Source: Caulobacteraceae bacterium (lineage in GTDB: Bacteria > Pseudomonadota > Alphaproteobacteria > Caulobacterales > Caulobacteraceae). Taken from it: a DNA stretch of 43,456 nucleotides. A model generated the notes under the pieces. That model made no database searches. It was not told where the DNA came from and saw only the letters and a list, made by a program, of their open reading frames with translations. The stretch lies in contig JANXUA010000153.1 of assembly GCA_025352085.1 (NCBI GenBank), forward strand, positions 1 to 43,456. Direction: 5' to 3'. A program made the translations under genes and the position numbers. Within the stretch, counting starts at the first letter, position 1. Each line of letters begins with the position of its first letter. Below, in pieces: positions 14,390 through 27,340 of the stretch.

Positions 14390-15367
14390 ATGAACGCGCT
14401 TGATGAGCCCCTCGACATCCTGGCGCGCCGTCGTCTGGGCGGGCGGGCCGCCGCATGCGTCGAACGCCTGTCGGCGGGCGCCACGCAGGAGATCTGGCGC
14501 TTTGATCTGCTGAAAGGCGGCGGCGCGACCCCGCTCATTCTGCGCCGGGCGCCCGGCGGCGACCGGATCACCGAAACCGCCGTCGGTCTGGAGACCGAAG
14601 CGCGGCTCATGGCCGCCGCCGCCGTCGTCGGCGTGCCCGTCCCGCCGGTGCGCTGGGTGCTGGAGCCCGAGGACCACCTCGGCCACGGCTTCATCATGGA
14701 CTTTGTCGAGGGCGAAACCCTGGGCGGCCGGATCGCTCGCGGCGAGCCCCTGGCTCAGGCCCGCATCTTTCTGGCCCGGCAATGCGGCGAGATCCTCGCC
14801 CGCATCCACACCATCAACCCGGACGACTTTCCGACCCTGGCGCGGGTTACGCCGGCCGAGAACGTGGCGCGTTATCGAGAGATTTACGACGCGACCGCCT
14901 GGCCGCGCCCGGTGTTTGAGCTGGCGTTCCGCTGGCTCACCGACCATTGCCCACCGCCGCCGGAGCATCCGCGCCTGGTGCACGGCGACTTTCGCAACGG
15001 CAATCTGATGATCGGGCCCGAGGGCGTGCGCGCCGTCTTGGACTGGGAAATCGCCCACGTCGCCGATCCGATGGAGGATCTGGGCTGGATCTGCGTCAAT
15101 TCCTGGCGGTTCGGCGTCGAGGGCAAACCCGTCGGCGGCTTTGGCCTGCGCGAGGATCTGTGGGCCGGTTACGAGGCCGCCGGCGGCGCGCCGGTCAACC
15201 GCGACCACGCCCTGTTCTGGGAAGTGTTCGGCTCCCTGCGCTGGGGCGTGATGTGCAGCGGCATGGCCACGACCTTCCGCACCACCGACCCCAATGTCGA
15301 GCGGGCGGTGATCGCGCGCCGCACCTCCGAAACCGAGGTTGATCTGTTGCGTTTGCTGGCGGCTTGA
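14390..15367 (+). CDS. Phosphotransferase, LvaA-like hydroxyacyl-CoA kinase candidate
   Basis: A 325-residue protein with the aminoglycoside phosphotransferase/choline kinase fold. Brenner's motif LVHGDFRNGN places the catalytic D200 after H198, and the metal-binding aspartate is D218 in VLDWEIAHVADPMEDLGW. A substrate-pocket segment GFIMDFVEGETLGGR lies around 102-116. Kinases of this type beside acyl-CoA dehydrogenases include LvaA of the Pseudomonas levulinate pathway, which phosphorylates the 4-hydroxyl of 4-hydroxyvaleryl-CoA, and the N-terminal half of ACAD10/ACAD11. Here the next gene is one base away and encodes a small DUF6285-like protein, followed by an acyl-CoA dehydrogenase, the same order as lvaA-lvaB-lvaC. 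Antibiotic resistance is an unlikely role. The exact acyl-CoA is inference. Confidence 0.85.
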   Translation: MNALDEPLDILARRRLGGRAAACVERLSAGATQEIWRFDLLKGGGATPLILRRAPGGDRITETAVGLETEARLMAAAAVVGVPVPPVRWVLEPEDHLGHGFIMDFVEGETLGGRIARGEPLAQARIFLARQCGEILARIHTINPDDFPTLARVTPAENVARYREIYDATAWPRPVFELAFRWLTDHCPPPPEHPRLVHGDFRNGNLMIGPEGVRAVLDWEIAHVADPMEDLGWICVNSWRFGVEGKPVGGFGLREDLWAGYEAAGGAPVNRDHALFWEVFGSLRWGVMCSGMATTFRTTDPNVERAVIARRTSETEVDLLRLLAA

Positions 15368-15368
15368 C

Positions 15369-15758
15369 ATGCAGGATGAACCCAAACCCGTCGAAGTCCT
15401 CTCCGCCGTGGCGCGTTTCCTCAAAGAGACCGTCGCCGCCGAGACCACCGGCCACACGTCGTTCAACGCCCGCGTCGCGGCCAATGCGCTGGAGATGATG
15501 CGCCGCCAGCTGGAGCTGGCGCCGGCGGCTGAAACCGCCGAGCACGCCCGGCTCAAGACCTTGCTGAATTCGGACGGCGATCTGGCCGCGCTCAACGCCG
15601 AGCTGTGCCGGCGCCTCAAGGCGGGCGAACTCAATCTGCAATCGCCGGGCCTGGCCGAGCATTTGTGGGAAACCACCCTGGCCAAACTCAGCGTCGATCA
15701 GCCGACCTATTGGGGTTACCGCGCCGCCCTCGCCCACGGCGCACAAACCAACGACTAG
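15369..15758 (+). CDS. DUF6285-like small protein, LvaB-like partner
   Basis: A 129-residue protein starting MQDEPKPVEVLSAVARFLKETV, all helical in appearance, with GHTSFNARVAANALEMMRR (about 30-48) as its most conserved-looking region and WETTLAKLSVDQPTYWGY near the C-terminus. From memory this is the DUF6285 pattern. It lies one base after the kinase stop and 12 bases before the acyl-CoA dehydrogenase. In Pseudomonas putida the small protein LvaB, in the same position, is needed for LvaA kinase activity, so a kinase-partner role is inferred here. There is no signal peptide or membrane helix. Confidence 0.8.
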   Translation: MQDEPKPVEVLSAVARFLKETVAAETTGHTSFNARVAANALEMMRRQLELAPAAETAEHARLKTLLNSDGDLAALNAELCRRLKAGELNLQSPGLAEHLWETTLAKLSVDQPTYWGYRAALAHGAQTND

Positions 15759-15770
15759 AAAGAAACCGCC

Positions 15771-17096
15771 ATGGACTTCGCCCTTTCCAATGACCTCACC
15801 GGCTATCTGGCCGAGCTTGACGCCTTCATCGACAGCGACATCAAGCCGCTGGAGAACCAGGACGATAATATCCGCTTTTTCGACCACCGGCGCGAACACG
15901 CCCGCACCGATTGGGATAACCAGGGTCTGCCCAGGCACGATTGGGAATTGCTGCTGGCTGAGGCGAAGAAGCGGGCGGACGCCGCCGGACACCTGCGCTA
16001 CGCCTGGCCCAAGGACATGGGCGGCAAGGGCGGCTCGAACCTCGACATGGCGGTAATCCGCGAGCACCTCGCCGCCAAGGGCCTGGGCCTGCACAACGAT
16101 CTGCAGACCGAGCACTCGATCGTCGGCAACAACCCATTCATCCTTATGTTTAAGGAATTCGCCACCAACGCCCAGCACGAGCGCTATGGCGACGATCTGC
16201 GGGCCGGCAAGATCCGCACCGGCTTTGGCCTGACCGAGCCGGACCATGGTTCGGACGCCACCCACATGGAGACCCGCGCCGTGCGCGAGACCCGCGACGG
16301 CGTCGACGGCTGGCTGATCAACGGCGAGAAGATGTGGACCACCGGCATGCATGTGGCGACCCACGTGATGACCTTTGCCCGCACCAGCGGCGAGGCCGGC
16401 GACGCCGGCGGCATCACCGTCTTTCTGGTGCCCGCCGACCACGCTGGCGTGAAGATCGAGGAATATCTGTGGACCTTCAACATGCCCACCGATCACCCGC
16501 GCGTCAGCCTCACCAACGTCTGGGTTCCCGACGACGCCATCTGGGGCGTTGAGGGTCGCGGCCTGGGCCTGGGGCAAAGCTTCGTGCACCAGAACCGCAT
16601 CCGCCAGGCCGCTTCGAGCCTGGGCGCGGCGGTATTCTGCGTCGAGGAAAGCGTCAAATACGCCCTGATGCGCAAGCCGTTCGGCAAGCCCCTGGCCGAC
16701 AATCAGGCCATCCAGTGGCCGCTGGTCGAGCTGGCCACCCAGTGCGAAATGCTGCGCCTGCTGATCCGCAAGACCGCCTGGGAAATGGACCACATGGAGC
16801 ACAAGCAGGTCGAGCGCGAGATCTCCGACAAGGTCTCGATGTGCAACTACTGGGCCAACCGCCTGGTCTGCGACGCCGCCGACCGGGCCATGCAGGTGCA
16901 CGGCGGCATCGGCTATTCGCGCCACAAGCCCTTCGAACACATCCTGCGCCACCACCGCCGCTATCGCATCACCGAAGGCGCCGAGGAAATCCAGATCCGC
17001 AAGGTCGCCGCCTTCCTGTTCGGTTATCTGGGCCCGAGGAAAAAGACGTTCGCAAACCTGACGTGGGACGACGTAGACTATCGCAAGGGCAGATAA
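15771..17096 (+). CDS. Acyl-CoA dehydrogenase, LvaC/ACAD11-like
   Basis: A 441-residue flavoprotein of the acyl-CoA dehydrogenase fold: N-terminal helices to about residue 130, a beta domain containing GFGLTEPDHGSDATHM and WLINGEKMWTTGM (about 151-190), and a C-terminal helical domain with VHGGIGYSRHKPFEH and the probable catalytic base E402 in RITEGAEEIQIRKVA. The longer N-terminus and the alanine in EGAEE place it with the LvaC/ACAD10-11 group rather than classical beta-oxidation dehydrogenases. In that pathway it would remove phosphate from a 4-phosphoacyl-CoA and help shift the oxygen to C3. AAGAAA precedes the ATG, 12 bases after the previous stop. Confidence 0.9.
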   Translation: MDFALSNDLTGYLAELDAFIDSDIKPLENQDDNIRFFDHRREHARTDWDNQGLPRHDWELLLAEAKKRADAAGHLRYAWPKDMGGKGGSNLDMAVIREHLAAKGLGLHNDLQTEHSIVGNNPFILMFKEFATNAQHERYGDDLRAGKIRTGFGLTEPDHGSDATHMETRAVRETRDGVDGWLINGEKMWTTGMHVATHVMTFARTSGEAGDAGGITVFLVPADHAGVKIEEYLWTFNMPTDHPRVSLTNVWVPDDAIWGVEGRGLGLGQSFVHQNRIRQAASSLGAAVFCVEESVKYALMRKPFGKPLADNQAIQWPLVELATQCEMLRLLIRKTAWEMDHMEHKQVEREISDKVSMCNYWANRLVCDAADRAMQVHGGIGYSRHKPFEHILRHHRRYRITEGAEEIQIRKVAAFLFGYLGPRKKTFANLTWDDVDYRKGR

Positions 17097-17109: not shown

Positions 17110-17658
17110 ATGTCCGCATTCAAAGACGCCATGCGCCGGGTGATCACCGGCGACAACGCGGTGGGTCAGTCGGTGGTGATCATCGACGGCGGCCCGTCGT
17201 CGATCGTCGGCGATCCGGACGTGGGGGGCCTATTCGAGATCTGGGAGGACTCCGCGACCGGTCCGCTGGACCCCAAAGCGCATGACGACCTCGGCGCCAA
17301 GGAGCCTGTTCTGGGCCCCCGCCCCGGCAATGCGCAAGTGCGCTGGTTCGTGGTCTCGCCGACGCCGGAGGGGGCGCCGCGAGACCAACTGAACGCCGCC
17401 GTCCGGGCTCGGTTCGCGGGGTTCCACGGCGACCATCACATCATCGACCAGTCGCGCCACCCGGCGATGCACAAGACCCATTCGATCGATGTGATCTGCC
17501 TGCTGCAAGGCGATGTCTCCCTGATCCTCGAAGACGGCGAGACCCGTATCAAGCCCGGCCAGGTGGTGATCCAGCGCGGCACGAACCACGCCTGGGAGGC
17601 GCATGGCGGCCCGGCCCTGCTGATGGGCGTGCTGATCGATCGGCCGCTGGGTCCCTGA
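17110..17658 (+). CDS. Cupin-domain protein at the end of the Lva-like operon
   Basis: A 182-residue protein whose C-terminal half is a cupin barrel: HKTHSIDVICLLQGDVSLIL (about 120-139) is cupin motif 1 with its glycine turn, and GQVVIQRGTNHAWEAHG (about 150-166) is motif 2. The N-terminal half (1-110) has its own beta strands, VVIIDGGPSS and LFEIWEDS, and a WFVVSPT segment, suggesting a degenerate first barrel. Candidate metal ligands are histidines 120/123 and H161; the usual His-x-His of motif 1 is spaced differently. It starts 13 bases after the dehydrogenase stop with GGAGAAA ahead of the ATG, so it is probably co-transcribed. No reaction can be assigned. Confidence 0.8.
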   Translation: MSAFKDAMRRVITGDNAVGQSVVIIDGGPSSIVGDPDVGGLFEIWEDSATGPLDPKAHDDLGAKEPVLGPRPGNAQVRWFVVSPTPEGAPRDQLNAAVRARFAGFHGDHHIIDQSRHPAMHKTHSIDVICLLQGDVSLILEDGETRIKPGQVVIQRGTNHAWEAHGGPALLMGVLIDRPLGP

Positions 17659-17768: not shown

Positions 17769-18107
17769 ATGTCGCTCTGCAAATATCTGGCGAGCGCCGC
17801 CATCGCGGCGGCGTTCACAATTCCCGCTTCGGCCTATAGCCACCCTGCCCCCGCGCCGACGATGAATTCCGTCTTCGCGCAGGCCGTCATGACGCCCGTC
17901 GCCTCGGTCCCGACGACCCAGGTCGACGCGAAGGTCCAGGAAATCCCCCACGCCGCCCCGGCGCAGGCCGATCCGGTGGGCGCGCCTTCGGCGGCCATGT
18001 CGACCACCGTCACCAACGGTCCGGTTCCCGACAATGCCGAAAACCGCGCTAAATACGGCGGGCCGATGAGTCACGCCGGTCGCCACACCGCCGCCGCGGG
18101 CAACTAG
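17769..18107 (+). CDS. Small secreted protein of unknown function (112 aa)
   Basis: A Sec signal peptide (KYLASAAIAAAFTIPASA, likely cleavage after ASA at residue 22) leads into a low-complexity mature chain rich in Ala, Pro, Val, Thr and His, with no cysteine after the signal. The C-terminus contains PDNAENRAKYGGPMSHAGRH, a segment reminiscent of short periplasmic proteins in Caulobacterales, but no named family is recognised. GGAAGG precedes the ATG at good spacing. The gene ends 12 bases before a LysR remnant in the same frame. Confidence 0.62.
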   Translation: MSLCKYLASAAIAAAFTIPASAYSHPAPAPTMNSVFAQAVMTPVASVPTTQVDAKVQEIPHAAPAQADPVGAPSAAMSTTVTNGPVPDNAENRAKYGGPMSHAGRHTAAAGN

Positions 18108-18348: not shown

Positions 18349-19671
18349 TCACCCCGTCTGCACGTCCGTCAGCAGGGTCTTGAGCCGGTTGGGGCCTTGG
18401 TCGCGGGCGGTCAGGACGGCGCGGTTGTGTTCGCGGATGTTGGAGGGCGGCGCGAGGCGCGGACCGGCGGGGGCTGCGGATTTCGCAAGACTCGATGTGC
18501 GCACATAGCCCGATACCTTGGCGGTCCGGATCATGCTCCAGCCGGCGGGGGCGCCGGCGCCTTCGACCACCTCGACCGGGGCGCCGCCGGCCACGGAGCC
18601 CACCGACCGCGAACTGGTGTCGGCCATCGAGCGCACGGTAAGCGCGCGCGCCGCCGTCCACGTCGGCGAGGGCGGGGCGGCCGGCGTCGGCGCCAGGGTC
18701 CCGCCGCCGCGCTTGAGCGGCGCGCCGGTGTTGGCTGCCGTGGTTGTTCTCGACAACGGCGTCGCGCCTTTCGGCGGCGGCAATTTCAGCGTCGTCGTCG
18801 ACGCGGTCTGGGCGTAAGCGGGCGCCTGGCCCCCCAGCACGTCGGCCTCGGACTTGTTTTCCGACATCGCCCGGCTCTGCGTGTAGGTCTTGGCGAGGGC
18901 GGCCTGTTGATCGACCACCGCGCCGGTCAGGTCCACGTCGCTCTTGATGGCCGTCGCCAGGACGGTGCGGTCGCGCGCGGCGACGTGGCGATCCTGATCG
19001 TTGCTGGCGCTGGAGAGCTTGACCTTGTAGTCGCTGACCTGCCGTGCGCGGCAAGCGTCGAGGGCGGCTTCTTCGGCGGCTATGGCGAGGCTGACATCGA
19101 CCTGGCGGCGGGCGTCGTCGTCGATGGAGGTGGCCAGACGGATGGTGTCGCCGCCGGACTCTTCCTCCTTGAGCTGGGCGTAGGCCTCGACGGTGCTAAC
19201 CACGGCGACCACGACGGCGATGGCCGCCATGGCGCGGACGTCGCCCGAACCGAGATTGCCGCCGCCGAAGACCCCAGCACCGGCCGCCGTCGTCACGCCG
19301 GGTATGTTCAAGGCGCCCGCTTCGGAGAGATTGGCCGGGTTGAAGAAGCTGAAACCGCCGCCCCCGCCACCGCCATGACCGAACGGTACGGCCCCGGGCA
19401 GATAGTGACCGAGCAACTGACCGGCGGCAAAGGTCGCGCCCACCTTCAACCCCGCCGTCAGGGCCGCCCCGAGATGGGAGTGGTGGATGGCCTGGTATTG
19501 TTTCTGGCGCTCAAGGATCGGCGCGCGCTCGGCCGCGCAGGCGTCGGCCTGCTTTGAGCCGCCGCCCGGAAGCCCGAGCGCGGCGACGTTCTGCATCTGC
19601 CCGGCCAGAACCGCGACCGCTCCGGCCGTGAGAATCACGGTGCGCAAAGAGTGATTCAGGCGGCGCCTCAT
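18349..19671 (-). CDS. SH3-domain envelope protein, partner of the caspase-like gene
   Basis: A 440-residue protein. An N-terminal signal or anchor helix (TVILTAGAVAVLAG, about 10-25) is followed by a Gly-rich hydrophobic region (about 70-185, with GHGGGGGGGFSFF and the probable helix VRAMAAIAVVVAVVSTVEAYA). Next comes a helical, Gln/Asp-rich middle (190-275), a Thr/Pro linker, and a bacterial SH3 domain (about 333-392) with LTVRSMADTSSRSVGSV and GWSMIRTAKVSGYVRTSSL. Bacterial SH3 domains usually bind peptidoglycan or proteins. The start codon overlaps the stop of the caspase-Sel1 gene by 4 bases, so the two proteins are made in a linked ratio. The function of the pair is unknown. Confidence 0.82.
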   Translation of the reverse strand: MRRRLNHSLRTVILTAGAVAVLAGQMQNVAALGLPGGGSKQADACAAERAPILERQKQYQAIHHSHLGAALTAGLKVGATFAAGQLLGHYLPGAVPFGHGGGGGGGFSFFNPANLSEAGALNIPGVTTAAGAGVFGGGNLGSGDVRAMAAIAVVVAVVSTVEAYAQLKEEESGGDTIRLATSIDDDARRQVDVSLAIAAEEAALDACRARQVSDYKVKLSSASNDQDRHVAARDRTVLATAIKSDVDLTGAVVDQQAALAKTYTQSRAMSENKSEADVLGGQAPAYAQTASTTTLKLPPPKGATPLSRTTTAANTGAPLKRGGGTLAPTPAAPPSPTWTAARALTVRSMADTSSRSVGSVAGGAPVEVVEGAGAPAGWSMIRTAKVSGYVRTSSLAKSAAPAGPRLAPPSNIREHNRAVLTARDQGPNRLKTLLTDVQTG

Positions 19672-21689
19672 CGCCGGCTGACCCGCGCCAGATCGGCCGC
19701 CGCGTCGGCATCGCCGGCGGCAGCGGCCTTGCGATAGAGGTCGGCGGCCTTGGCGAGATCGCGCGGCGCCCCGCGCCCGGCCTCATACATCACCCCAAGA
19801 TTGCGCAGGGCCGCAACGCTGCCGGCGTCCACGGCCCTTTGGAAGAACGAAACAGCAGTGACGTCGTCCTGGGTGACCCCCTCGCCCTGCGCATAGAGGG
19901 CGCCCAGACCCAGGAGGCCGCGCGCGTCGCCGCGATTGGCCGCCTGGCGATAGGAGTCGGCGGCTCTGGCGAAATCCTGCGGCAGGCCGCGTCCGCCTTC
20001 CAGCATGACACCCAGCGCCGACATGCCCTCGCCGTCGCCGGCCTCGGCGGCGCGCTGATACCAGGTGGCGGCCTGCACCAAATCGCGGTCGACGCCGACG
20101 CCGTCCTCATAGGCATAGCCCAGACGAACCATGGCCGCGCCTTGGCCCGCAGCGGCGGCGCGCTGATAGGCGCCGAGCGCCGCCTTGTGATCAACCCGCA
20201 CGCCGTTACCCCGCTCATAGAGATCGGCGAGGTCGAGCATTGAAGGTTCGTCGCCGGCGTCGGCGGCCTTTTGCAGCCAAGCGGCGCCCTGGCGCGGGTC
20301 GCGCGGCACGCCCTGACCCTGGAGATAGAGCTGGCCGACCAGACCCATGGCCGACGGCAGGCCTGCGGCGGCGGCGGCGCGCAGCCAATGCACGCCTTGG
20401 ACCTGATCGGCCGCCACGCCGTAACCGTTCAGCAGGCTCAGGCCATAATTGACCATGCCGCCGGGATGGCCCGCCTTGGCCGCCTGGGCGAACCACCGCG
20501 TCGCCTGGGCCTGATCCTTGACCTCGCCGCGGCCGGTGAAGGCCATGACGCCGAGGTTATAGGCCGCCGCCGGATCGCCCTGATTGGCCGCCGTCCTCCA
20601 GGCGTTGATGGCGCCGGGATAGTCGGCCCGCTCGAAGGCGGCGCGGGCCTGCGTCAGGGCGTTCGCGGCCGGCCCGCCGGGAGGCGGCGTAGCGTGGACC
20701 GACATGGTTCGGCTCTGATCGGCCAGGACCCGCACGCGGTTGAGGGCCAGAGGGCGATACAGGCCGGAAAACTCGCCCCGATCGCTCTGGTCGAGATAGG
20801 CTTGAAAATCCGCCGGATCGGTCGAGTTGCGGATGGTTTGCCAGAAGGCCTGCTCGCGCTTGCCCCGCGCCTGGGCGTCTACGTCGGCCTGGGCCCGCCC
20901 ACGATCGGGCGCCTTGCCGTCGAAACTCCAGTAGATATCGACCCAGATGCCCTGCAGATCCGGCGACTGACGATCATTGGTCTGGCGCTGCACCTCACTC
21001 TGAACAAAGCGCGGCAGCTCGCCGGTAGTGAGGCGCGGGCGTTTCAGGGCCTGAATCAGCGCCAGGGCGAACGGGCTGTTGTCGCCGGCGCCGTCCAAGG
21101 CCGCCTGGCCCGGCGCGGCCGCCATCAAGGTGACCACCTGGGTGGTCAGTCCCCCGGTCTCCCGCGCAAGGCCGCCCTTCAGGCTGATGGTCTGGCCTTG
21201 AGCAGGATTGTCACGGCAGGCGTCCAGGATCACCAGGCGCACCGCCTTGGCCTGGAGCACCGCTTCGCGCACTCTCGAGGCCTCAAACCCGCTGGCGATC
21301 ATCTTGTCCATCGACGCATTGCTGGCGTCGCGGGGGAAGAGGTAGTTGACGCCGGCGACCTCGGCGCCATGGCCGGAGAAATAGATCACCGCCGCGTCGG
21401 CGCCTTGCGCCTGTTGGGCGAAGGCGGCGATGGCGGCGGCTAGGTCCTTGCGTTCAGGATCGATCAGCGGCGTGACGGTGAAGCCCAGGCGTTTCAGCGC
21501 CGCGCCGACAAGCTGCGCGTCCGACACGGTGTTCTTGAGCGGATTGACCGTCTCGTAGTGCGCCACCCCCACTACCAGCGCCACGCGGTTGGGCTTGGCG
21601 AGCGCCGGTGACGCGGCGAGCAGGCTCGCGGCCGCCAGCACCCCAAGGAGCGCGACTGGAGGGACGCCTCGTCGACCCGGCTTCGGCAT
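19668..21689 (-). CDS. Caspase-like (peptidase C14) protein with Sel1 repeats
   Basis: A 673-residue exported protein. A signal peptide (VALLGVLAAASLLAASPALA, cleavage near residue 31) is followed by a C14 caspase-like domain (about 34-270) with the catalytic dyad H107 in VIYFSGHGAE and C158 in RLVILDACRDNP, then a linker, then eight full Sel1-type repeats and a partial ninth (about 365-673), each about 36 residues with the A-x-x-LG-x-x-Y-x-x-G-x-G pattern. Both catalytic residues are present, so it may be an active cysteine protease in the periplasm, with Sel1 repeats as a protein-binding scaffold. The ATG at 21689 is chosen over one 27 bases upstream because GGAGAGG precedes it. It is followed by the coupled SH3 gene. 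Confidence 0.92.
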   Translation of the reverse strand: MPKPGRRGVPPVALLGVLAAASLLAASPALAKPNRVALVVGVAHYETVNPLKNTVSDAQLVGAALKRLGFTVTPLIDPERKDLAAAIAAFAQQAQGADAAVIYFSGHGAEVAGVNYLFPRDASNASMDKMIASGFEASRVREAVLQAKAVRLVILDACRDNPAQGQTISLKGGLARETGGLTTQVVTLMAAAPGQAALDGAGDNSPFALALIQALKRPRLTTGELPRFVQSEVQRQTNDRQSPDLQGIWVDIYWSFDGKAPDRGRAQADVDAQARGKREQAFWQTIRNSTDPADFQAYLDQSDRGEFSGLYRPLALNRVRVLADQSRTMSVHATPPPGGPAANALTQARAAFERADYPGAINAWRTAANQGDPAAAYNLGVMAFTGRGEVKDQAQATRWFAQAAKAGHPGGMVNYGLSLLNGYGVAADQVQGVHWLRAAAAAGLPSAMGLVGQLYLQGQGVPRDPRQGAAWLQKAADAGDEPSMLDLADLYERGNGVRVDHKAALGAYQRAAAAGQGAAMVRLGYAYEDGVGVDRDLVQAATWYQRAAEAGDGEGMSALGVMLEGGRGLPQDFARAADSYRQAANRGDARGLLGLGALYAQGEGVTQDDVTAVSFFQRAVDAGSVAALRNLGVMYEAGRGAPRDLAKAADLYRKAAAAGDADAAADLARVSRR

Positions 21690-21828
21690 CACGCCTCTCC
21701 GCTCCCAACGCCTCATACATCGATCTGTTCACACTGACGGTATCGCGGCGGCGAATCAACTCTCCCCGAGGCGGTGAACGGTCGCGGCTGCTTGTTTCGT
21801 CATATTTCGCCCTTATTTACCCCAGATT

Positions 21829-22714: not shown

Positions 22715-23488
22715 CTATCGCCCGGTGAACACGCCCTGGCGTTTTTCGATGAACGCCGCCATGCCCTCTTTCTGGTCGGCCGTGCCGAACAGGCCGTGGA
22801 ACAGCCGTCGCTCGAAGGCGACGCCTTGATCGAGCGTGGTTTCGAACGCGGCGTTGACCATTTCCTTGCACGCCATCGCCGCCAGCGGGGCCATGCCGGC
22901 GATGGTTTCGGCGGCTTTCAGGGCCTCGGCGCCAAGGTCGGTGAGCGGCACGACGCGCGCGACCAGCCCGGCGGCCTCCGCCTCGCGCGCGTTCATATTG
23001 CGGCCGGTGAGGCACATCTCCATGGCTTTCGCCTTGCCGACGGCGCGGGTGAGCCTCTGTGAGCCGCCCATGCCGGGCGTCACCGCCAGCTTAATTTCCG
23101 GCTGGCCGAATTGCGCATTTTCGGCGGCGATGATGAAATCAGCCATCATCGCCAATTCGCAGCCACCGCCCAGGGCATAACCCGCCACCGCCGCGATCCA
23201 CGGCTTGCGGGTCTTGGTCAGATCGCCGTAGCCGGCGAAGAAATTGGCGCTGTACATGTCGGCGAAAGATTGCTCCGACATCTCCTTGATATCGGCGCCC
23301 GCCGCGAAGGCGCGGTCGGAGCCGGCAAGAACCGCGCAGCGCTGGCCGGGATCGGCGTCGAATTTGGCGAAGGCGTCCAGCAGATCGGCCAGCACCTGGC
23401 TGTTGAGGGCGTTGAGCGCCTGCGGCCGGTTCAGGGTGACCACGGTCACCGCGCCCTTTTGCTCCACCAGGATCGTTTCATAACTCAT
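22715..23488 (-). CDS. Enoyl-CoA hydratase (methacrylyl-CoA hydration candidate)
   Basis: A 257-residue crotonase-fold enzyme. The oxyanion-hole strands are AAGADIKEM (about 62-70) and [12 protein letters not shown] (103-114). The two catalytic glutamates are E111 and E131 ([15 protein letters not shown]), as in classical enoyl-CoA hydratase. In this operon it most likely hydrates methacrylyl-CoA to 3-hydroxyisobutyryl-CoA, the substrate of the hydrolase encoded just upstream. The start at 23488 overlaps the hydrolase stop as ATGA and gives the family N-terminus MSYETILVE; an ATG at 23500 would add four residues and cannot be excluded. It is the last gene of the operon. Confidence 0.93.
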
Positions 23489-24531
23489 AGGGGCGTCCAT
23501 TCTTCGTTTGCGGCCAGCGGCGCGAACACGGCGTCCAGCATGGCGTCGGTGACGCCTTCGAGCGTGTCAGGCGACCAAACCGGCGCATTGTCCTTCTCGA
23601 CGATCACCGCGCGCACGCCCTCGCTGAAATCGCGGCCCATGACCAGGCGGGCGGCGATGCGGTTCTCCATCGCCATGACCTGAGCAAAATCGGTCATGGC
23701 GGCGCCGGATTTGAGCTGGCGCAGGGCGACCTTGAGGCTGAGCGGCGATTTAGCGCTCAGGATCGTCAGCTGAGCGGTCGCCCAGTCCGATCCGTCCGCC
23801 GCCAGGGCCGCGACGATCGCCTCGAGCGTCGCGCCGCCGAACAATCGGTCGATGTGATCGTGATGCTCGATCATCTGCGAGCGACCGGGGTCGACCTCCA
23901 GTTCGGTCAACACCGTCTCGACCGCCTCCGGATCGGCGACCAACCGGGCCTTGAGGTCGGGCAGGCTCGCCGACGGGACGACATCGGTGGCTATGCCCAA
24001 TATCTCGCAGCCCGCGGCCTTGAGGCGCGCGCCGGTCAGGGCCATCCACACGCCCGTCGCGCCATGCAGCCGAGGCAAGAACCAGCCGCCGCCGACGTCC
24101 GGGAAAAGTCCGATTCCGGTTTCGGGCATGGCGAAGGTCGTGCGCTCGGTGGCGACGCGATAGCGCGCCGGCAGGGTTATCCCGACCCCGCCGCCCATGG
24201 TGATTCCGTCCATGACGGTGATGATCGGCTTGGGGTAGACTTTCATCAGATGGTTGAGCTGGTATTCGGTGAAAAAGAACCTGCGCGCCGCCTCGCCGCC
24301 CACGGCCACGCTGTCGGCGAGATAGCGGATGTCGCCACCAGCGCAGAAGCCCCGCTCGCCGGCGTGATCGATGAGGAGGGCCTTGACCGCGTCGTCATCC
24401 CGCCAGGACAGCAGGGCGTCGGTTATCAGTCGCACCATGCCCGCGGTCAGGGCCCCCAGCGCCTGCGGGCGGTTGAGTGTGAGACGCCCGAGCGCGCCCT
24501 CAACCTGGATTACGACCTCCGGCTCGCTCAT
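23485..24531 (-). CDS. 3-hydroxyisobutyryl-CoA hydrolase
   Basis: A 348-residue crotonase-superfamily thioesterase that releases 3-hydroxyisobutyrate from its CoA ester in valine breakdown. Length and motifs fit the hydrolase rather than hydratases: [14 protein letters not shown] (57-71), [11 protein letters not shown] (109-119), and the catalytic region [20 protein letters not shown] with E137 and D145. The C-terminal [20 protein letters not shown] is also typical. It overlaps both neighbours by 4 bases (24528-24531 and 23485-23488), so translation of the three genes is coupled. Confidence 0.95.
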
Positions 24532-25667
24532 GGCCGAAGCAATTCGCGGGCGATGATCACGCGCATGATCTCATTGGTTCCTTCCAGGATCTGGTGCACG
24601 CGCAAATCTCGCACAATCCGCTCCAAAGGATAGTCCTTGAGATAACCATAGCCGCCATGAAGTTGTAGAGCCTGGTTGGCGACGTCAAAGCCGACGTCAG
24701 TGGCGAAGCGCTTGGCCATGGCGGCGAGACGGGTGGCGGCCGGATCGCCGGCGTCCAGCGCAGCGGCGGCCTGGCGGACCATCAGCCGGGCGGCCTCCAG
24801 CTCCGTCGCCATGTCGGCGAGCTTGAATTGCAGGCCCTGGAAGTCGCTGAGCGCCCGACCAAACTGTTTGCGCGTGGTAAGGTGCTCTTTGGCGGTTTCG
24901 AGGGCGAAGCCGGCGCCGCCGAGCGAGCAGGAGGCGATGTTGATCCGCCCGCCGTCCAGACCCTTCATGGCGATGCGAAAGCCCTGGCCTTCCTCGCCGA
25001 CCCGGTTCTCTTCGGGGATGACGCAATTGTCGAAATGCACCATGGCGGTGGGCTGGTTGGCCCAGCCCATCTTGCGCTCCTGCGCGCCGAAGGTCAGGCC
25101 GGGCGTTCCCTTCTCCACCACGAATGTCGAGACGCCGCCGGCGCCGTCACCGCCAGACCTGGCCATCACGACATAGATGTCCGACACCCCGGCCCCGGAA
25201 ATGAACGCCTTGGCGCCGTTGAGCACATAGCTCTCGCCGTCGCGGCGGGCGGTGGTGCGTAAGGACGCCGCGTCCGAACCCGCCCCGGGCTCAGTCAGGC
25301 AATAGGAGCCGATCAGCTCCATGGTTGTCAGGCGCGGCAGATATTTGCGGCGCAGAGCGTCGGAGCCAAACACGTCGATCATCCACGAGGCCATGTTGTG
25401 GATGGATAAGAACGCCGCCGAGGATACGTCGCCCGCCGCGAGGGCTTCGAAGACCAGGGACGCGTCGAGCCGCGAAAGGCCGGAGCCGCCGACATCCTCG
25501 TTGATGTAAATCCCGCCAAACCCCAGCGCGGCGGCCTCTCGCAACATGTCCACCGGAAAGTGCTTGTCCTCATCCCAGCGCGCGGCATGCGGGGCCATCT
25601 CCGCCTGGGCGAAGCTGCGCGCCGCGTCCTGGATCGCGCGCTGGTCCTCGGAGAGACTAAAATCCAT
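24528..25667 (-). CDS. Acyl-CoA dehydrogenase (isobutyryl-CoA dehydrogenase candidate)
   Basis: A 379-residue four-domain acyl-CoA dehydrogenase. It shows [18 protein letters not shown] (about 125-142), the [11 protein letters not shown] and KMGWANQPT segments, the [15 protein letters not shown] motif and the catalytic base E362 in [19 protein letters not shown]. This C-terminal base and the operon context point to isobutyryl-CoA or another short branched acyl-CoA, oxidised to methacrylyl-CoA with electrons passed to ETF. The start at 25667 ([12 protein letters not shown]) is preferred; the frame stays open another 180 bases upstream only because it runs through the hairpin-rich repeat in the gap after mmsA. 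Confidence 0.94.
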
Positions 25668-25680
25668 GGCAAAAAACCCT

Positions 25681-25819
25681 CTCTTCCCCCTCTGGGGGAA
25701 GTGGATCGGCGCCCGTTTGCGCCGAGACGATGGGGGCAGCGGCGCCCGCCGGGGCAAAACTGCGATGGGGTTGGCCCCCTCCCCCGGCTTCGCCGGTAAT
25801 TCCCCCAAGGGGGGTAGAG
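25681..25819. repeat. Hairpin-rich intergenic repeat-like element with terminal inverted repeats
   Basis: This 139-base element fills the gap between mmsA and the acyl-CoA dehydrogenase gene. Its ends are imperfect inverted repeats (CTCTTCCCCCTCTGGGGGAA at the left; the right end reads CTCTACCCCCCTTGGGGGAA on the other strand). It holds at least four hairpins: TTCCCCC-TCT-GGGGGAA (25684-25700), CGGCGC-CCGTTT-GCGCCG (25707-25724), CCGGC-TTC-GCCGG (25784-25796) and a CCCCC-AA-GGGGG near 25802-25813. It has the look of a non-autonomous palindromic repeat of the kind dispersed in alphaproteobacterial intergenic regions. No second copy is present in this window. Confidence 0.68.
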
Positions 25820-25843
25820 AAAATAATCGCCATCGGCCCGCCC

Positions 25844-27340
25844 TCACCCCATCGTCGGGATCACGAAGGCGGAGTCCTCGGTGGCGCCTTCGGGCCAGCG
25901 GGCGGTGATGGTCTTGACCTTGGTGTAGAACTTCACCCCTTCCATGCCGTGCTGGTTGGTGTCGCCAAAGGCGCTGCGCTTCCAGCCGCCGAAGGTGTGA
26001 TAGGCCACCGGCACCGGTATCGGCACATTGATCCCGACCATGCCGACATTGACGCGCGAGGCGAACTCCCGCGCGGCGCGGCCGTTGCGGGTGTAGATGG
26101 CGACGCCATTGCCGTAGGGATGCTCGGACGGCAGGCGCAGGGCGTCCTCGAACGTCTCGGCGCGGACGATCTGGAGCACCGGCCCGAAAATTTCCTCCTG
26201 ATAGGTCTTCATGGTCGGCTTGACGTGGTCGAACAGGGTCGGGCCGACGAAGAAGCCGTTTTCATAGCCCTGGAGGGTAAAGCCGCGGCCATCGACCACC
26301 AGTTCGGCGCCCTCGTCGACGCCCATCTGGATATAGCTTTCGATCTTCTCGCGGTGCGCCGCCGACACCACCGGCCCGTATTGCGCGGCCGGATCGGAGG
26401 ATATGCCGACCTTCAGGGCTTCGATCTCGGCGAGAACCTTTTCGCGCAGGGCGTCGGCGGTCTTGGCGCCGACCGGCACGACGACCGGCAGGGCCATGCA
26501 CCGTTCGCCCGCCGAGCCATAGGCGGCGCCGATCAAATCCTTCACCGCCTGATCCAGATCGGCGTCGGGCAGGATGATGCCGTGGTTCTTGGCCCCGCCC
26601 ATGGCCTGGACGCGCTTTCCGTGCGCCGCGCCGGTCGAATAGACATAGGATGCAATATCCGACGAGCCGACAAAGCTCACCGCGCGGATCAAGGGGTGGG
26701 TCAGGATCGCATCCACCGCGACCTTGTCGCCGTGCATCACATTCAGCACGCCGGCCGGCGCGCCGGCCTCCATGAACAGCTCCGCCAGACGCACCGGCAG
26801 GCTGGGGTCTTTCTCGGAGGGCTTGAGAATGAAGCTGTTGCCGACGGCGGTGGAAATGCCGAACATCCACATCGGAATCATGGCGGGAAAGTTGAACGGG
26901 GTGATGCCGGCGCAGACGCCGAGAGGCTGGCGCATGGAATAGACGTCGATGCCGGGGCCCGCGCCCTCGGTGTATTCACCCTTAAGCACATGCGGGATGC
27001 CGCAGGCGAACTCGATCACCTCCAGGCCGCGTTGAATGTCGCCCCGGCTGTCGGCGATGACCTTGCCGTGCTCGCTGGACAGCAAGTCCGCCAGTTCGTC
27101 CATGCGCGCCTCGACCAGGCGTTTGAATTCGAACAGCACCCGCGCCCGGCGCTGCGGATTGGTCGCCGCCCAGCCGATCTGGGCGCGGGCCGCGGCCTGG
27201 ATGGCTGTGTCCATGTCGGCGACCGTGGCCAGAGCCACCCGCGCCTGGACCTCGCCGGTATTGGGATTGAAGACGTCGCCAAAGCGTGTCCCCGTTCCAG
27301 CCCAGGCCTTGCCGCCCACTAGATGTTGAACCTGCCGCAT
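25844..27340 (-). CDS. mmsA: CoA-acylating methylmalonate-semialdehyde dehydrogenase
   Basis: A 498-residue aldehyde dehydrogenase that turns methylmalonate semialdehyde into propionyl-CoA with NAD+ and CoA. The catalytic cysteine is C281 in [12 protein letters not shown]. The family-specific [21 protein letters not shown] segment, in two parts near 136-155, and the conserved [20 protein letters not shown] (246-265) identify MmsA rather than other aldehyde dehydrogenases. It heads the valine operon on the minus strand and is divergent from a LysR regulator. GAGGAGA precedes the ATG. A relic of a second copy of its 5' end lies beyond the LysR gene at 28362-28397. Confidence 0.97.

Follow-up and report, generated by a model that had tools for sequence, protein, structure and literature searches.

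The DNA analysed here, referred to as the window, is the 43,456-nucleotide contig JANXUA010000153.1 of a Caulobacteraceae bacterium (assembly GCA_025352085.1, genome G000 in our set). Its positions 14,390 to 17,096 encode an APH-fold kinase, a small DUF6285 protein and an acyl-CoA dehydrogenase (ACAD), which a preliminary description of this DNA had read as an LvaABC-like module acting on 4-hydroxyacyl-CoA. The three genes are closely packed, as that description had stated, and the open reading frame (ORF) list and the sequence agree on gaps of 1 base between kinase and DUF6285 genes and 12 bases between DUF6285 and dehydrogenase genes; the HGD motif and aspartate it had numbered in the kinase were also found in place (Table 1). 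In the Pfam scan, the kinase matched PF01636 (APH) and the small protein PF19802 (DUF6285), each with 114 bits, and the dehydrogenase matched Acyl-CoA_dh_1 with 139 bits, all above cut-off. The kinase, the DUF6285 protein, the dehydrogenase and the cupin-like ORF that follows them all stayed below the cut-offs of the NCBIfam models. The N-terminal, middle and C-terminal domains of the ACAD fold are all present in the dehydrogenase (Pfam, AlphaFold2, Foldseek); its AlphaFold2 model has a predicted local distance difference test (pLDDT) score of 88.2, and the 50 listed PDB matches from Foldseek are ACAD-family structures. Of the LvaABC-like reading, the LvaB family, the LvaA-like kinase and the absence of lvaD, lvaE and lvaR from beside the module hold up, and the LvaC/ACAD11-type dehydrogenase does not.

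In mouse ACAD11, residues R626, H634 and R637 and the catalytic D753 belong to a set common to ACAD10, ACAD11 and LvaC, according to the part of PMC12440821 consulted. The window dehydrogenase has F271, Q279, S282 and E402 at these places, and the ACAD11-type assignment made in the preliminary description was rejected on this ground: judged by these residues, the enzyme is not of the LvaC/ACAD10/ACAD11 type, and the 4-hydroxyacyl-CoA substrate is therefore not established. Glu402 lies instead at the ordinary ACAD base position, as seen in an alignment with 1ukw, 4n5f and three others. The same pattern, here called E-type, extends to 99 ORFs picked by score alone, a set that may hold duplicates since some loci are the same contigs (e.g. 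L177 and L096); Phe, Gln and Glu are each found in 99/99, and the serine position is Ser in 93 and Gly in 6. All four residues of the ACAD11 set (R, H, R and D) are present in 10/10 proteins of the HCMR type, rows that were picked by the HCMR motif, so that the His and Arg within it follow from that choice, unlike the upstream Arg and the Asp. E-type proteins also have polar residues of their own that are invariant in the 99 ORFs (D110, Q112, E114, N120, H273, N275 and R278), which would be suited to an acyl group carrying a charge or a hydroxyl.

In a tree of 54 ACAD rows the E-type proteins form one clade (support 100/100) and the HCMR type another (97/92), and the two are also apart in a second tree of 39 rows. 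The deeper grouping of the E-type clade differs between the trees, being with the HCMR clade in the first (97/91) and with ordinary ACADs in the second (90/80). The nearest NCBIfam models are acryloyl-CoA reductase, 3-sulfinopropanoyl-CoA desulfinase and glutaryl-CoA dehydrogenase, which share the ACAD family with the window protein; membership in these three was rejected, with scores of 146-158 bits against cut-offs of 470-640. 3-Sulfinopropanoyl-CoA desulfinase eliminates a charged group.

Table 1. Features of the kinase-DUF6285-dehydrogenase locus, in window positions.
Feature	Position	Strand	Details
APH-fold kinase, LvaA-like	14390..15367	+	ATG start, 325 aa; HGD at residues 198-200, D218
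DUF6285 protein, LvaB family	15369..15758	+	ATG at 15369, 129 aa
E-type acyl-CoA dehydrogenase	15771..17096	+	441 aa; Glu402 at the catalytic place, without HCMR motif
Helix that holds R626/H634/R637 in ACAD11	16581..16616	+	codons 271-282 (FVHQNRIRQAAS); F271, Q279 and S282 in the window protein
Glu402 codon	16974..16976	+	place of the canonical ACAD base (Asp753 in ACAD11)
Cupin-like ORF, possible fourth operon gene	17110..17658	+	PF07883 17.4 bits, below cut-off

Distribution across genomes ties the E-type dehydrogenase to the kinase-DUF6285 module. In a phylum sample of 398 genomes, which takes in the window's own genome, DUF6285 was detected in 39 and an E-type ACAD in 30; both were present in 29, DUF6285 only in 10, the E-type only in 1 and neither in 358. 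A family sample of 149 genomes gave DUF6285 in 73 and the E-type in 72, with both in 71, DUF6285 only in 2, the E-type only in 1 and neither in 75. Fisher p values for co-occurrence, with genomes treated as independent, were 2e-34 and 5e-39 for the phylum and family samples; the thresholds were set by us (E <= 1e-110 for the E-type, 1e-75 and 1e-105 for HCMR-like ACADs). Joint presence and absence is seen within a genus too: in the family sample's genus g3, G102 alone carried both genes, and neither was found in G002, G024 or G037. Read by eye, the two genes are side by side in 19 of the 29 co-occurring phylum genomes, and the other 10 have them far apart on one contig (4) or on different contigs (6). 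In seven of the ten phylum genomes with DUF6285 and no E-type, the kinase has an HCMR ACAD as its neighbour (G156, G164, G193, G217, G319, G493 and G525); G284 has a short locus with a partial ACAD match, and no ACAD was found within 16 kb in G423 and G455.

A scan for relatives of the dehydrogenase matched at least 597 stretches, of which 584 encode some relative. The best 80, which we kept with at most 6 kb per side, are 72-93% identical to it and include Phenylobacterium, Sphingopyxis, Novosphingobium, Erythrobacter, Chelatococcus and three metagenome-assembled genomes labelled Pseudomonadales or Gammaproteobacteria. By tblastn, 57 of these 80 loci have a kinase match above 80 bits and 56 a DUF6285 match. 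Because the kinase, DUF6285 protein and E-type dehydrogenase recur together in other genomes, the set in the window is not a chance arrangement. CoA ligases, enoyl-CoA hydratases, thiolase or FadJ are neighbours at several copies (L065, L077, L090 and L099), which fits entry into beta-oxidation and does not name the substrate. E-type ACADs that lie away from a kinase showed no neighbour gene common to most loci.

The kinase and DUF6285 protein were compared with locus L059 of another genome with DUF6285, where an opposite-strand regulator is followed by a kinase, DUF6285, a dehydrogenase, a short-chain dehydrogenase and a CoA ligase. We labelled L059 lvaRABCDE-like by gene order and translations, and it serves as a stand-in for Pseudomonas putida KT2440. 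The L059 protein in the lvaB place matches PF19802 with 72.4 bits and is 25% identical over 109 residues to the window DUF6285 protein. On this comparison DUF6285 is the LvaB family, and the relation to LvaB put forward in the preliminary description, which it would have given up had the small protein proved unrelated, is retained. The window kinase is 36% identical over 293 residues to the L059 kinase, and its PDB matches include 3dxp, 9o56 and ACAD11 (8v3v/8v3u). By sequence it is of the LvaA/ACAD11-kinase kind and outside the LvaA clade itself: the kinase tree separates its clade, called the window clade (33 rows, support 98/91), from the LvaA clade (10 rows, 99/99). The two clades adjoin, with a branch order relative to L076 and the Thermus locus L101 that is not fixed by the tree. 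Save for one plasmid row, every genome or record in the window clade has an E-type ACAD, and the LvaA clade consists of nine genomes without a detected E-type ACAD and one plasmid row; the plasmid rows (L100 and L102) were left out of the test for an E-type ACAD elsewhere.

Kinase and DUF6285 are joined in one chain in 25 ORFs, among which duplicates are again possible, from 125 sources (the window, L059-L102 and L177-L256), all at loci other than the window. Such fusions occur in both kinase clades, L066, L067 and L069 being of the LvaA clade, and this fits a lasting partnership of the two proteins. The fusions also agree with the binding of LvaB to LvaA seen by pulldown in P. putida, where mutants in lvaA, lvaB or lvaC fail to grow on levulinate (the relevant part of PMC6692424, quoting Rand 2017). 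The AlphaFold2 model of one fusion has a mean pLDDT of 84.8. Other arrangements of these genes were observed as well. At L092:7246-8059 (the same place as L005) one kinase is followed by two tandem DUF6285 ORFs. In the Thermus locus L101 and the Azospirillum locus L102, kinase-DUF6285 is followed at once by a histidine phosphatase gene and stands beside an HCMR-type ACAD; a histidine phosphatase is also noted for the Pseudomonas citronellolis lva cluster in the part of PMC6692424 consulted.

We tentatively favour, at somewhat less than even chances, a reading in which a hydroxyacyl-CoA is phosphorylated by the kinase and DUF6285 protein and the phosphorylated product is the substrate of the E-type enzyme. 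This preference draws on the homology of the kinase and DUF6285 protein to parts of the lvaRABCDE-like operon L059, on the natural fusions of the two, on the co-occurrence of the E-type with DUF6285, on a kinase phylogeny that follows the ACAD type, on the beta-oxidation neighbours and on the invariant polar residues of the E-type; the hydroxyacyl-CoA substrate and the use of its phosphorylated form by the dehydrogenase are both inferred. The kinase, with its DUF6285 partner bound, would phosphorylate the hydroxyl of the hydroxyacyl-CoA at the expense of ATP. The E-type flavoprotein would then act on the phosphorylated acyl-CoA, with Glu402 taking the C2 proton, hydride passing to FAD and phosphate being lost, and the enoyl-CoA product would enter beta-oxidation. 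For ACAD10 and ACAD11 a mechanism has been proposed in which C2 is deprotonated, hydride passes to FAD, a dienoyl-CoA arises as phosphate leaves and the hydride is then given back (PMC11342911, in the part consulted), and by analogy with this scheme Glu402 would be the base in the E-type enzyme. LvaC and ACAD11 have other phosphate-binding residues and another catalytic base, and we therefore do not expect the substrate to be levulinate or plain 4-hydroxyvalerate; its hydroxyl would differ in position or stereochemistry, or its acyl chain would be branched or cyclic. Given its different kind of dehydrogenase, the module is probably a relative of LvaABC and not another copy of it. The broader proposal that E-type enzymes are a second flavoprotein family for phosphoacyl-CoA elimination, with the canonical Glu, their own invariant polar residues and their own kinase-DUF6285 clade, and serving hydroxyacyl-CoAs beyond those of LvaABC and ACAD10/ACAD11, is speculative and, in our estimate, rather unlikely.

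Several observations weigh against the phosphorylated-product reading, and most of them suit its main rival, in which an ACAD11/LvaC-type enzyme from another place in the genome takes over the kinase product and the E-type enzyme carries out a conventional dehydrogenation at a different step of that catabolic route. Glu402 and the alignments with ordinary ACADs fit normal dehydrogenation equally well. The window genome itself has a separate HCMR/Asp dehydrogenase with the full motif (C172:3964-5244) and two more Asp-type proteins with changed motifs (C163 and C105). An HCMR-like ACAD that could take the kinase product was detected by profile in 40/40 E-type genomes examined, among which we found none without one, and the HCMR and Asp motifs are present in 30/30 of the HCMR-like ACAD loci read. 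In genus g35, 9/9 E-type genomes have an HCMR ACAD 3.5-7.7 kb from DUF6285, and the Sulfitobacter locus L099 has both ACAD types in one cluster, within 11 kb. This explanation is a real possibility, though one that we doubt on balance. HCMR-like ACADs were detected in 20 of 33 genomes without DUF6285 and E-type ACAD and so stand on their own, whereas the E-type tracks DUF6285; the kinase adjoins an HCMR ACAD in the seven genomes named above and in two plasmid records, all without an E-type there; and in the window kinase clade the usual neighbour is the E-type. Other points tell against the phosphorylated-product reading in their own right: the co-occurrence statistics ignore kinship, rough gene calling left 33 of the best 80 loci without a kinase ORF (as against the 57/80 with a kinase by tblastn), the L076 kinase (genome G285, E-type present) falls outside both clades, as does that of Thermus L101, and the LvaA-clade loci L068 and L069 have no ACAD beside the kinase.

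The pathway originally proposed, a true LvaABC/ACAD11 equivalent moving 4-hydroxyacyl-CoA into beta-oxidation, would be consistent with a gene order and DUF6285 partner like those of L059 and with the homology of the window kinase to the ACAD11 kinase domain. We consider it quite unlikely, as the residues that ACAD11 reportedly requires are replaced by F, Q, S and E, three of them (F, Q and E) without exception in the 99 E-type ORFs, the E-type proteins form a clade of their own and no gene of the lvaD, lvaE or lvaR kind was found among the ten neighbours scanned. It is highly improbable that the kinase acts on a non-acyl-CoA substrate, such as a free hydroxylated terpenoid, steroid or drug, with the dehydrogenase link incidental. 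In its favour, structures of 25-hydroxysteroid kinase take ranks two to four in the Foldseek search with the kinase-DUF6285 fusion model, and that kinase acts on a free sterol (PMC8449060, in the part consulted). Against it, the window kinase is coupled to an acyl-CoA dehydrogenase, several loci have CoA-ligase and beta-oxidation neighbours, and its relatives in sequence include the LvaA and ACAD11 types.

Compared with LvaABC of P. putida KT2440, the window set shares the kinase superfamily, the DUF6285 partner and an acyl-CoA dehydrogenase in third place, in the order of L059; its dehydrogenase falls in a different clade, shares 31% identity over 380 residues with the ACAD of L059 (the stand-in for KT2440), lacks the HCMR motif and has Glu for Asp, with no lvaD, lvaE or lvaR kinds beside it among ten neighbours. 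The animal kinase-ACAD proteins ACAD10 and ACAD11, and the bacterial ACAD11-like enzymes, resemble it in the ACAD fold and in coupling phosphorylation to an ACAD, but all four 4-phosphoacyl determinants differ in the window dehydrogenase and the ACAD11-like ACAD of the window genome is a separate one. ACAD10 and ACAD11 are not known to contain DUF6285. The 25-hydroxysteroid kinase of Sterolibacterium appears similar as an APH-like kinase that serves catabolism by turning an alcohol into a leaving group, a resemblance in modelled structure only; it acts on free sterols, and no DUF6285 or ACAD partner is mentioned in the part of PMC8449060 consulted.

In the literature consulted, which was covered in part, LvaC and ACAD10/ACAD11 form the single dehydrogenase family linked to phosphate activation as a way for hydroxy acids to enter beta-oxidation. 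The E-type lineage is one for which we found no description in the literature searched, and its gene set recurs in bacteria. The search for the module covered titles and the starts of abstracts, with partial coverage, and gave no description; kinase and DUF terms gave nothing in the part of PMC12543098 consulted, and a literature search on DUF6285 found no paper. If a second lineage is tied to kinase-DUF6285 across several alphaproteobacterial orders, the name 'LvaC-like', given by gene order, is wrong there. DUF6285 would also gain a testable role as the partner of the kinase, and an unrecognised class of hydroxy-acid substrates would become testable in laboratory strains of Caulobacter. DUF6285 is present in Caulobacter vibrioides.

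The cupin-like ORF, which the preliminary description left out, starts 13 bases downstream of the dehydrogenase gene, and its Cupin_2 score of 17.4 bits compares with a cut-off of 27.2. It is kept in L096/L177 and lies 0.6 kb from the module in L093; as it was found in only 1 of the best 80 loci, it was rejected as a core part. Upstream of the module, Pfam identifies two TPM proteins, a chorismate-binding enzyme and a class IV aminotransferase, and downstream a weak SH3_3 match, a caspase-Sel1 protein and a beta-oxidation block on the opposite strand. None of these ten neighbours is of the lvaD, lvaE or lvaR kind by Pfam (the ORFs at 17769 and 21912 were left out of the scan), in agreement with what had been described. 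The caspase-Sel1 protein (19668-21716, minus strand) is a single chain with a Peptidase_C14 caspase domain (113 bits) followed by six Sel1 repeats. The block at 22715-27340 (minus strand) encodes ECH_1, ECH_2, acyl-CoA dehydrogenase and aldehyde dehydrogenase families by Pfam and reads like valine degradation, a pathway name suggested by the gene families.

Further observations concern related genes at other loci. At L078, at L099 and in genus g35, an HCMR/Asp ACAD and an E-type ACAD are both found near one kinase-DUF6285 pair. The window genome has a second kinase (L116, C23:3005-3862 and flanks) followed by an ORF of about the length of LvaB, for which a genome search with DUF6285 gave no match; the ORF preceding this kinase resembles, by eye, the Rv3169-family protein that follows the module in L088 (NF053593, 388 bits). 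Proteins of DUF7064/DUF7065 are encoded beside kinase genes at L075:9309-10361 and L100:12583-13620. The gene for the 25-phosphosteroid lyase was called unknown in 2021 (PMC8449060, in the part consulted), and that these DUF7064/DUF7065 neighbours might be candidates for it is only an idea.

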